Assembly (NCBI GenBank): GCA_017546085.1
Contig: JAFYXQ010000053.1
Location: 1-34,131 of the forward strand
Source of the DNA: Alphaproteobacteria bacterium
GTDB lineage: Bacteria > Pseudomonadota > Alphaproteobacteria > Rs-D84
DNA length: 34,131 bases
Direction: 5' to 3'
Numbering within the stretch: position 1 is the first letter of the stretch; each line of letters opens with the position of its first letter. Shown piece after piece: positions 30,371 to 34,131 of the stretch. The position numbers were made by a program, and so were the translations under genes. The notes beneath the pieces are model-generated. The model saw only the letters and a program-made list of their open reading frames with translations. It searched no databases and was not told the DNA's origin.

Positions 30371-31066
30371 GTGGAAAACCGCGTAGAACCGCCAATTTTA
30401 TTATCAAGAATAACTATGTTTATTTTGGCCAGCGCTGTTGTTGTGCTGGGGGTGCTCGCATTTACCATATACAATATGTTCCCGCTTAATCGTCCACAGG
30501 TATTTTTCCTGATGACAGATTTGCGCAACAATCAAGAAATCGAATTACAAGAATTGCCGCCACAGGATGAAAACCTGAATACATATAAACAACTTTTTAT
30601 CACCGAATATATAAAACATCGAAACGAAGTTTTTTCTAATCCAAAGGCAATGATAAAAAAATGGAATAGCAAGGACGGTATCGTCAGAACATGGTCTGAC
30701 AACAAAGTCTATGCCGATTTTGCCAACACCGCCATGTTTAACGCGATAATGCAAGGTGATGCGCCTGATTTTGAATTCGTTTGTGGGGTTGACTTTGTTG
30801 GACTGCCGATGCTTGTATCTACGTCCGAAAAAAAAGACGAAATACGTATTGATACGTATCAGATAAAAATTAAATACCATTGTGAAGATAATACTGGACG
30901 AACCACACCAAAAGATTATACAATCAAACTGAGATTACTGACAGAAGAAGGAAATAAAATAAAATGGACCAACCGCATTGATAACCCATTGGGACTGCGT
31001 GTGATTGGTTATGAAATATTGTCAAAAAACGGCGACCCATTGGACACTGGTTTTTTGGCTGACTAA
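30371..31066 (+). CDS. virB8: VirB8-like type IV secretion inner-membrane protein
   Basis: 231 residues from a GTG with a strong AAGGGGGAG ribosome site. One membrane helix (about 13-38) is followed by a periplasmic domain with the VirB8/NTF2-like order: a helix around ITEYIKHRNEVF, a WNSKDGIVRTWSD turn, FANTAMFNAI, then beta strands (TYQIKIKYHC, DYTIKLRLLT) and a C-terminal GLRVIGYEI strand. VirB8 nucleates assembly of the secretion core in the inner membrane. Similarity is moderate and by pattern, but the following VirB9 and VirB10 genes make the call firm. DotI/IcmL-type proteins share this fold and are the alternative. Confidence 0.8.
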   Translation: MENRVEPPILLSRITMFILASAVVVLGVLAFTIYNMFPLNRPQVFFLMTDLRNNQEIELQELPPQDENLNTYKQLFITEYIKHRNEVFSNPKAMIKKWNSKDGIVRTWSDNKVYADFANTAMFNAIMQGDAPDFEFVCGVDFVGLPMLVSTSEKKDEIRIDTYQIKIKYHCEDNTGRTTPKDYTIKLRLLTEEGNKIKWTNRIDNPLGLRVIGYEILSKNGDPLDTGFLAD

Positions 31067-31085: not shown

Positions 31086-32630
31086 ATGATGTTTGCAAAA
31101 TTATTTAAACTAAAATTGTCTGTTTTTTGTTTGGCTGGAATTTTATCGTTACCTGCATACGCTGAAAATGTTGCTAACGATTATGGAATTCAGGCAGCAT
31201 GGGATAACCCAACCGCAAACATGGCCGCCGGCAGCATTAAACCAGGCTATGCACAGTTAACTTGGTCCCCTGGGGCGGTTTTGCCACTAAAACTGCGCAA
31301 TGGTATGATAACAATGGTTACCTTGCCAAATGGCGAACAAATCGAAAGTGCATATACAGGCGACACAACCCAATTTGATATTCAAGACGGTGCAATCGGC
31401 AGTCGTACATTCTTTATTTCGCCAACACCCAGCAATCAGGGCAACGATACAAACTTAATTGTCAGCGGAAAATCTGGCAACAAATACATATTCTATCTGC
31501 GTGCAGAACCAACAAACGCCAGCGAGATTACATATTCACAGGTTGATGTTATAATGGACGGAAATGCACCATTATCAATGACAGGTGCCGCAACAACCGG
31601 AAATAGCGGTTCTGTGTTTAAAGCGAAAACAGCCCCAACAACCGTTGTTGGCACGGACGGCGAAGATTATGGTTGGATCAAATCCATGAAAATTGATCCA
31701 TCTGAATTCCGTTTTGATTTGGATATATTCGTTCCAAACCCTGATGATTATGTAATTGCACCTGAACGCGTGTGGCGCGATCGTATATTTACATATATCG
31801 ATTTTGGGGACAAGGTTATTTCAATGACACAACGTCCAGTTGTAGCATTGTTGGTCGAAGGTGGCGAATCCCCAGTTGGATTCCGCACAGATGGCGAAGA
31901 CGGTCGTTTATTGATTGTAGAGGCTGTCGGCGACATGATTCTGCGTAGTGGACAAAGAATTGTTTGTATTAAAAAGCGCGAAAAACCATTCTTAATCGCT
32001 GATACCGCTTCGGTTATGGCACTGGCAGAGGCCAATGTTGCACAAAGCATGTTGTCAGGTCAATCGCTGAATAATATTGCATATACAGACAGTATGGCCG
32101 CGATGAGTATGGGAACCAATTATACAGGAACACCGGTATTCGTCGGTGATAACCAAACTGTTAATCCAATGACTGGTGCTGGGTATTATATGCCTGCGGG
32201 ATACGGTATGCCACAAGCACCACAAACACCGCAATCAATGGGCAGCGTTGTAAATATGTTACCACAACAAAGAAATACAGCCGGTGCATATTTGCCACAA
32301 ACAAACATCCCGTTAATAACAAGTAATCAATCCGGGGTTGCGGTTGAATTGGCGGCAGACACATCTATTAAGGCGTTAGAAGATTATTGGACAAAGCTGA
32401 TGGCAAAATTCACAGGTGAAGATGGTCATGGGTTATTAACACCATACAAAGACGAAGTCTTCTTTGCGGTTGATGAACAAGGTGTTGGTGATTTAGGCGC
32501 AGAATCAAAGACTGCACGCATGTATCGCCTGCGCATCGGTCCATTGCCGGATATCGATACTGCACAAACATTATGCGACAAACTGCTGCGCGTTAGTGGC
32601 ACGAGTTGTAATGTTATTCGTTTGCAGTAA
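31086..32630 (+). CDS. virB9: VirB9-like core protein with C-terminal SPOR domain
   Basis: 514 residues from the ATG at 31086 (a second ATG follows at once), with GGAAGGA 6 bp upstream; a frame open back to 31005 overlaps virB8 and is rejected. Signal peptide ends in LPAYA. Residues ~40-170 are the VirB9/CagX N-terminal beta domain (GAVLPLKLRNGMITMVTLPNGEQIES to NTNLIVSGKSGNKYIFYLRA). The C-terminal VirB9 lobe follows at ~205-310 (VWRDRIFTYIDFGD..RPVVALL, then LRSGQRIVCIKK). A Met/Gln/Pro-rich linker leads to a SPOR-type domain at ~417-514: VELAADTSIKALEDYW, then ARMYRLRIGPLPD and AQTLCDKLLRVSGTSC. SPOR domains bind glycan strands stripped of stem peptides, often at the septum. This fusion is unusual for VirB9. 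Confidence 0.85.
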   Translation: MMFAKLFKLKLSVFCLAGILSLPAYAENVANDYGIQAAWDNPTANMAAGSIKPGYAQLTWSPGAVLPLKLRNGMITMVTLPNGEQIESAYTGDTTQFDIQDGAIGSRTFFISPTPSNQGNDTNLIVSGKSGNKYIFYLRAEPTNASEITYSQVDVIMDGNAPLSMTGAATTGNSGSVFKAKTAPTTVVGTDGEDYGWIKSMKIDPSEFRFDLDIFVPNPDDYVIAPERVWRDRIFTYIDFGDKVISMTQRPVVALLVEGGESPVGFRTDGEDGRLLIVEAVGDMILRSGQRIVCIKKREKPFLIADTASVMALAEANVAQSMLSGQSLNNIAYTDSMAAMSMGTNYTGTPVFVGDNQTVNPMTGAGYYMPAGYGMPQAPQTPQSMGSVVNMLPQQRNTAGAYLPQTNIPLITSNQSGVAVELAADTSIKALEDYWTKLMAKFTGEDGHGLLTPYKDEVFFAVDEQGVGDLGAESKTARMYRLRIGPLPDIDTAQTLCDKLLRVSGTSCNVIRLQ

Positions 32631-32654: not shown

Positions 32655-34131
32655 ATGAGCAAAATTAGACAGCGTATTTCAGAATTTCGCAATAGTTTGC
32701 CAAAACGCGTTCAGTGGTTATTGCTGATTGTGGCGTTGGTTATTGTTGTCATATTTTTGACCCTGATGTTATCAAGGAATGCGTCTGATAAGATAAACAT
32801 CAAAGACACACAGACAGTCCAATTGAATATAACACCAAATAAAATTAATTGGACAGATGTGTTGGTCGGTCAGAAACGCGAGGAAAAGATTATTGTATCT
32901 TCACAGGAATTGGTAAAAATAACTGATGTAGATTTATCAAAAAAGATAAACGGTCTTGACGTAACAAATACATGCGTTTTAATGGCAGAAATTAGCGAAG
33001 ATATCACATGTAAAATACCGCTTAGTTATAAACCAACTGATGCGCAGATAACCGAAACTGTTGAATTGGTTATTACATGGCATCCTGTGGATAATGATTC
33101 AATAAAAAAAACAACTAAGATAGAACTGACACTTGGGGCGGCGTTGCCAAAACAAGAGCAAAAAATGCCTGCAATCAAAGAACCTGTGGTCGAACCGGAA
33201 ACTGTGGTCGAACCAGAACCTGTGGTCGAACCGGAACCAGTAGCAGTTCCTGAACCTGAATATGATGTTCAAGAAGAAATTATACAGGATATCGAAACAA
33301 TCGCGCCTGCTATTGATTTCGAAGAACCAACGAAAGTTCCCGCCGTCGCACAAGAGGCATGTTCTGATTTTGCGTTTCCAGGTTATAACAATTCTGGGCG
33401 TCAAATTGGATGGATAAAACCAGACGGTGGCGCATATTATTTTCATCCATTTTCTGACAAGAATTGCGATAGCCCAACAGGTATCTATAACCCAGATAAT
33501 GGGATAATTACAGATATTGATAATGCGGCCAAAACAATCGGTACAGATGCAGAACATATTGGATATGGGACTATTTTATCAGGCGAAATGCCACAATTGG
33601 GCACCGTGGTAAAACCACGCAAGATTAATCGCGCAGTTCAACATGAAATGGCCATTGCGCGTAAAGGTAACGCAGGCAAAGCGATATTAGGCGACGCCCC
33701 CAAACTAACCGTAGAATACGGTTCTAGCAATAAGGGAACTGTAACAAATTCGATACCATATGACAGAAGTTTTGTTCTACGAAAGTATAAACCGATTCCT
33801 GCGACAATTGTTTCTGATATTCGCGCAGATATTGATGCATTAGAGCAAGGTGTGCCAGTGCGTGCAACGGTGGATAGAAATGTATATTCAGATAATGGTC
33901 GCACGGTTATTATTCCAACAGGAACATTATTGATGGGATATGTAACCGGTAAGGTGCCAGGGCCATATCAGGCAATCGGCAGAATGGAAGTAAAATGGTA
34001 TCAATTCATATTACCAAATGGTGTAGAGTTTAATTTTGAGGGCGGACCATTAGATCCGTATTCTGGCGATGCACAGGGGCGTATTGGTGTTCCGGGACGT
34101 GGCAGCACCGATTATTTGGAACAATTTATAA
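32655..34131 (+). CDS. virB10: VirB10-like core protein with an extra Ig-like domain (3' end beyond window)
   Basis: 492 codons are open to the window edge from the ATG at 32655. One membrane helix (about 20-40) is followed at ~54-160 by an apparent Ig-like domain of the ASH/choice-of-anchor type (VQLNITPNKINWTDVLVGQ, later NTCVLMAEI, then ITCKIPLSYKPTD). A Pro/Glu-rich stalk with VVEPEP repeats (163-203), a small Cys-bearing domain (~230-300) and the VirB10/TrbI barrel follow. The barrel has NGRTVIIPTGTLLMGYV, GRMEVKWYQFILPNGVEF and a DPYSGDAQGRIGVPG loop. VirB10 spans both membranes and couples ATPase energy to the outer-membrane pore. It starts 24 bp after virB9; the ribosome site is weak (GGGG). 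Confidence 0.85.
   Translation, partial: MSKIRQRISEFRNSLPKRVQWLLLIVALVIVVIFLTLMLSRNASDKINIKDTQTVQLNITPNKINWTDVLVGQKREEKIIVSSQELVKITDVDLSKKINGLDVTNTCVLMAEISEDITCKIPLSYKPTDAQITETVELVITWHPVDNDSIKKTTKIELTLGAALPKQEQKMPAIKEPVVEPETVVEPEPVVEPEPVAVPEPEYDVQEEIIQDIETIAPAIDFEEPTKVPAVAQEACSDFAFPGYNNSGRQIGWIKPDGGAYYFHPFSDKNCDSPTGIYNPDNGIITDIDNAAKTIGTDAEHIGYGTILSGEMPQLGTVVKPRKINRAVQHEMAIARKGNAGKAILGDAPKLTVEYGSSNKGTVTNSIPYDRSFVLRKYKPIPATIVSDIRADIDALEQGVPVRATVDRNVYSDNGRTVIIPTGTLLMGYVTGKVPGPYQAIGRMEVKWYQFILPNGVEFNFEGGPLDPYSGDAQGRIGVPGRGSTDYLEQFI
33183..33236 (+). repeat. 18-bp tandem repeat encoding VVEPEP in virB10
   Basis: Three copies (33183-33200, 33201-33218, 33219-33236) encode the Pro/Glu stalk. The first and third copies are identical; the second differs at two positions. 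Copy-number slippage would change stalk length by six residues. Confidence 0.85.

Follow-up and report, generated by a model that had tools for sequence, protein, structure and literature searches.

A SPOR domain with an altered glycan-binding residue at the C-terminus of VirB9 in one lineage of alphaproteobacterial type IV secretion systems

Main finding

By descent and fold, the C-terminal tail of the VirB9 protein encoded in the window (the whole 34,131-nucleotide stretch of DNA analysed here) is a SPOR domain. Two known parts are joined in one type IV secretion system (T4SS) lineage, and with them comes a telling residue change, an acid standing where SPOR domains that bind denuded glycan have a glutamine. 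The fusion marks this whole lineage, plasmids included, and is not particular to the gene at hand. A search of the open-licence literature yielded no description of a SPOR domain on VirB9, in keeping with the sequence-only reading of this DNA, which knew of no characterised case.

The virB9 gene and its surroundings

The following features were located in the window, all on the forward strand:

30371..31066, +, virB8 (PF04335, E 3e-6)
31086..32630, +, virB9 with a C-terminal SPOR domain, 514 aa (ORF translation, Pfam)
31086..31163, +, predicted Sec-type signal sequence, residues 1-26 (read from the translation by eye)
31254..31976, +, CagX/VirB9 domain, residues 57-297 (PF03524, E 6e-22; N-terminal part with pLDDT of about 90 or more)
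32028..32276, +, variable linker, approximately residues 315-397, predicted to be disordered (pLDDT mostly below 50; lowest identity and highest pN/pS among the regions compared)
32328..32627, +, SPOR domain, residues 415-514 (PF05036 and predicted fold)
32346..32348, +, Glu421, at the position of the glycan-binding glutamine (RlpA Q270, FtsN Q251; alignment)
32526..32534, +, Arg481-Leu-Arg483, equivalents of RlpA R309 and R311, with the basic patch kept (alignment)
32574..32609, +, Cys497 and Cys508, from the first base of one codon to the last of the other (pair invariant in 31/31 tails)
32655..34131, +, virB10, truncated where the contig stops (PF03743, E 3e-12)

The 514-aa product scores 78.8 bits against PF03524, for a cut-off of 34.2, and its gene lies between virB8 and virB10, while VirB4 and VirD4 are coded elsewhere in the same genome. 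It shares the profile, the signal sequence and the gene placement with VirB9, TrbG and CagX of T4SS outer-membrane cores, from which it differs by some 215 extra residues after the CagX domain, made up of the disordered linker and the SPOR domain; a linker-SPOR tail of this kind is absent from the approximately 74 ordinary VirB9s in the sample. As a whole, the T4SS parts found were VirB3, VirB4, VirB8, VirB9, VirB10 and VirD4, with a single VirB9 detected by genome search in the 822 kb draft genome. A complete virB10 is available from a relative (L037:7561-9957, 798 aa), and a Stealth-family gene (PF11380; L037:11147-12268) lies downstream of virB10 in this member of the genus.

Three further SPOR proteins are coded in the source genome and were named by inspection as FtsN-like, D-Ala-D-Ala-carboxypeptidase-like and RlpA-like. 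Its nearest named relatives belong to Candidatus Enterousia, in the order Rs-D84, which comprises gut Alphaproteobacteria with reduced genomes, thought to be partner-dependent (PMC12306168).

The tail is a SPOR domain

On the whole VirB9, PF05036 matches residues 473-512 with 21.1 bits for a cut-off of 21, and only through the second half of the profile. Because this single-sequence score is marginal, the domain was checked by further means. The isolated tail reaches 24.9-25.1 bits, and 30 of 31 diverse homologue tails are matched at E 0.01 or better, the best at 4e-9. An AlphaFold2 model of residues 398-514, built from 74 aligned sequences, has a mean pLDDT of 72 and the order E-H-(H)-E-E-H-E, that is, the RNP-like beta-alpha-beta-beta-alpha-beta fold of SPOR domains. 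Its top Foldseek matches in the PDB are RlpA-SPOR with denuded glycan, RlpA-SPOR, DedD SPOR and CwlC SPOR. VIA-align Z values of the tail are 8.2, 8.1 and 6.4 for RlpA, RlpA and CwlC, respectively (rmsd 2.2 over 76 residues at Z 8.2), and unrelated folds stay at or below 4.4 with one exception. The highest Z, 9.5, belongs to 6ozd, an exported Burkholderia protein of unknown function from which nothing was drawn. No relatives were returned by a PDB sequence search with either the whole VirB9 or the tail profile as query; fold comparison alone found some.

In the model of the full-length protein (protein residue = model residue + 24), the N-domain has a pLDDT of about 90 or above and the SPOR domain mostly of 78-92, with one loop at approximately 50; most of the stretch between VirB9 and SPOR falls below 50, and the VirB9 C-domain is poorly modelled. 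Among homologues the linker differs in both sequence and length. Comparison of sequences from the genus gives the lowest pN/pS in the VirB9 C-domain (0.04), nearly equal values in the SPOR domain (0.23) and the N-domain (0.24), and the highest in the linker (0.38); these values are crude, synonymous sites being near-saturated, but they leave the order of the regions clear. The codons of the SPOR tail are under purifying selection.

The sequence-only reading, which had taken 31086-32630 for a VirB9 fused to a C-terminal SPOR domain, is borne out by the two Pfam profiles and by the predicted fold. It had staked this on the tail folding as a SPOR domain and on its not aligning to ordinary VirB9 C-termini; the predicted structure is a SPOR fold, and no such alignment was found. 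The alphaproteobacterial layout that it recognised is likewise present, with a Trp 14 residues past the strand-1 marker, a YRLR-GP strand 3 and the Cys pair.

Distribution and origin of the tail

The survey of related genomes for the same tail, also proposed from the sequence, found SPOR-tailed VirB9 in 33 of the 34 other genomes of the genus. This count includes one genome with an in-frame TAG in virB9 (G019; locus L135:3232-3663) and another (G002) in which VirB9 was matched as two pieces of one open frame. The remaining genome (G022), which is 96% complete, gave zero VirB9 matches; this absence and the TAG of G019 are possible losses or assembly gaps. Wrong joining of two adjacent genes, through assembly or gene calling, might be suspected in a draft fragmented into 62 contigs, but the same fusion is found at the same place not only in these 33 genomes but also in other families and in complete plasmid sequences. 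Such recurrence in independent assemblies refutes an artefact, which we regard as having practically no chance of being the explanation.

The tail is present in every sampled family of the order Rs-D84. In the genus, the virB8-virB9-virB10 cluster is near nusG in 72/80 loci and near rplK in 70/80, and therefore occupies a fixed chromosomal locus; in the other families of the order the tail is kept and the neighbour genes differ. At the level of the class, VirB9 was found in 84 of 385 genomes. A tail-profile search placed the tail in seven families outside the order (f8, f27, f37, f53, f56, f78 and f95) at E 4e-36 or better, a match that confirms rather than discovers, most of these sequences being also in the profile. 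About 74 other VirB9s have no meaningful match to it. The VirB9s of the plasmids of Sphingosinicella (E 1e-7) and Erythrobacter (E 1e-6), which are absent from the profile, do match it, although the Sphingosinicella protein remains below the cut-off of the Pfam SPOR profile with 13 bits. A weaker case is the Microvirga plasmid VirB9, whose SPOR-like tail was judged by eye, and an Azospirillum plasmid VirB9 has no SPOR tail.

Concerning the 398 genomes sampled thinly across the phylum, the tail profile found the VirB9-type tail in the genus only (at least 99 bits); many ordinary SPOR proteins also matched, all at 47 bits or less. A maximum-likelihood phylogeny was computed from VirB9 cores, with the tail left off and seven long-branch rows removed. 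In it, a branch with support 99/96 sets apart the 40 proteins that bear the tail, a number that includes Microvirga. Since the tail-bearers form one VirB9-core clade, a single gain is the simplest reading and the likely one.

Two plasmid members, Sphingosinicella sp. BN140058 p1 and the Erythrobacter aureus plasmid, encode conjugation systems with a virB8-virB9-virB10-virB11-virD4 order and a MobA/MobL relaxase. Their VirB9s fall in the same clade as that of the window and have a SPOR-like tail with an acid at the glutamine position; they differ from it in being plasmid-borne, in the nearby relaxase gene and in the weaker SPOR match. One genome with a SPOR-tailed VirB9 (G125; L197, L201) has two further, ordinary tail-less VirB9 genes, and the contig of each of these also has VirB4 and VirD4 matches.

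An acid at the glycan-binding position

RlpA holds the glycan through many main-chain contacts and through three side chains, those of Q270, R302 and R309, R311 belonging to the same basic patch as R309; in FtsN, lesions at Q251 (the equivalent of RlpA Q270) and R285 reduce septal localisation (PMC6895207). The DamX marker glutamine at the same strand-1 position is Q351. For the VirB9 tails, the residue map was fixed by the RlpA sequence and numbering, and the register by the Trp found 14 residues after the Gln in alphaproteobacterial FtsN-type SPORs.

The tail resembles the SPOR domains of FtsN, DamX, DedD, RlpA and CwlC in its profile, fold and strand-3 arginine pair, and its C-terminal place on a leash is that of FtsN. 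It differs from them at the Q270 position, and also in its carrier, a secretion-machine ring protein instead of a division protein or wall enzyme. At that position, the diverse chromosomal tails have Glu (30/31) or Asp (1/31), Glu421 being the residue of the window, and all 74 tails of the genus have Glu; the Sphingosinicella and Erythrobacter plasmid tails have Asp, and an alignment by eye puts Ile there in the tail of the Microvirga plasmid protein. By contrast, Gln is found in 31 of the 32 ordinary SPORs of the same 19 genomes and in all eight of the closest ordinary SPORs from other parts of the phylum, that is, in 39 of 40 ordinary domains, 32 of which come from the same genomes as the tails; these Gln and acid counts come from related sequences and are not independent, so that a Fisher p-value computed on them is not read as a probability. 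Because Glu or Asp is fixed across the diverse chromosomal tails, the alignments indicate a position held as an acid, not one that drifts. The arginines are largely kept, with Arg in 31/31 tails at the R311 position; at that of R309, 24 of the 31 have Arg and the other 7 have His. As the marker glutamine was tested for and not found, the tail is not classed as a denuded-glycan-binding SPOR.

These data bear directly on the functional part of the sequence-only reading, placement of the machine at septal or denuded peptidoglycan. With canonical SPOR function, the tail would bind amidase-processed denuded glycan and thereby bring the machine to the septum or to the new pole. Several observations are in favour of this: the top Foldseek match in the PDB is RlpA with denuded glycan, the R309 and R311 equivalents are kept, the domain is C-terminal on a disordered leash, which can be likened to FtsN, and an amidase is present in 18/19 genomes. 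Against it stands the acid in 31/31 diverse tails, when Gln is the rule in the ordinary SPORs that these genomes encode. Furthermore, Duncan et al. are said to have made, in 2013, the very change Q251E in FtsN, and the protein was reportedly defective in sacculus binding and lost its septal localisation. The aromatic residue of the F274 position is also absent from the VirB9 tails, although it is likewise missing from some FtsN-type SPORs of these genomes, and the F274 change alone was for that reason rejected as a sign of lost binding. Placement at septal or denuded peptidoglycan is weakened by these results, and we now hold it to be unlikely.

A putative tether arm on the ring

In its family, VirB9 forms a ring at the outer membrane, and FtsN carries its C-terminal SPOR domain on a disordered leash. 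In the reading that we favour, to which we would give about an even chance, this VirB9 would be the ring subunit of a chromosomal T4SS, bearing a SPOR-derived domain on a flexible leash of about 90-100 residues. Its many copies around the outer-membrane core would each extend one arm, and, because of this leash, they could get as far as the peptidoglycan layer, or a partner associated with the wall, and fix the machine in the envelope. The acid takes the place of the Gln by which the lactyl carboxylate and the N-acetyl group are read, and it could pair with the kept arginines, which would otherwise hold this carboxylate; for this reason the arm would probably differ from FtsN and RlpA in not reading denuded septal glycan, and its ligand would be either another form of peptidoglycan or a protein. 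Among the 19 genomes with SPOR-VirB9, VirB4 was found in 18, VirD4 in 19 and Amidase_3 in 18, so that these genomes have both the machine and an enzyme that produces denuded glycan.

Two points weigh against a tether with a changed ligand. Some canonical binding could survive the Gln-to-Glu change, since R311 is kept in 31/31 tails and most of the glycan contacts of RlpA are main-chain. Also, no solved VirB9 was matched by sequence in the PDB search, and the C-domain of VirB9 came out poorly in the model.

Alternatively, the tail may pack on a neighbouring VirB9, VirB10 or VirB8 as an extra ring or lock of the core complex and bind no wall component. Purifying selection on a tail that has lost the glycan Gln is consistent with such a role, as are the C-terminal VVR-Q residues, strongly kept in the tails and with no known glycan role, and the likewise unusual partners in the VirB10 place, with large beta-flower repeats in several families of the lineage. 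A disordered and variable linker, however, speaks against a fixed position, and the arginines of the glycan side are still conserved; we judge this packing role rather unlikely.

A bolder possibility is a SPOR lineage with a reversed reading, in which the acid would turn the pocket away from free muramyl carboxylates and towards ordinary, peptide-bearing peptidoglycan or a protein, and the domain would anchor a conjugation or effector machine in the wall away from division sites. This we put forward tentatively, as somewhat unlikely; were it true, a secretion system would have captured a SPOR subfamily whose ligand is new, the first of its kind.

How T4SS cores are anchored in the cell wall, and positioned relative to it, is poorly understood, and here one T4SS lineage has a module of wall-binding type inside the ring protein itself. 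Such a machine would be important to the host bacteria, given their supposedly partner-dependent life. With Gln replaced by Glu in nature, the question becomes sharply testable by single residues, and the change cautions that not every SPOR domain should be annotated as a denuded-glycan binder. The tail can further serve as a marker of one T4SS lineage common to the chromosomes of several small-genome alphaproteobacterial families and to plasmids.

Neighbouring genes in related genomes

Downstream of SPOR-VirB9, the virB10 position is occupied in families beyond the order by a very large gene (L170:7347-13001 and L175:7451-10876), the first coding for more than 1885 aa before being cut by the end of its stretch. 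Both are full of beta-flower repeats (PF21785/PF21784) and recall repeat-rich VirB10-type proteins elsewhere. Upstream of SPOR-VirB9, families f78 and f53 have a tandem virB8 pair (L170:4118-5829 and L175:3878-5679), for a single virB8 in the window. Directly upstream of the tandem genes, a 1281-aa open frame (L175:15-3860) gave zero Pfam matches.

Finally, genes resembling those of the R64-like type IVb pilus adjoin T4SS genes, a relation of gene neighbourhood. In a related genome (G073), VirB3-VirB4 are near TcpQ, secretin, PilO, T2SSE and T2SSF genes (L247:11313-19203), and in the source genome PilO and T2SSE are found near VirB3-VirB4 (L242:15393-18947).
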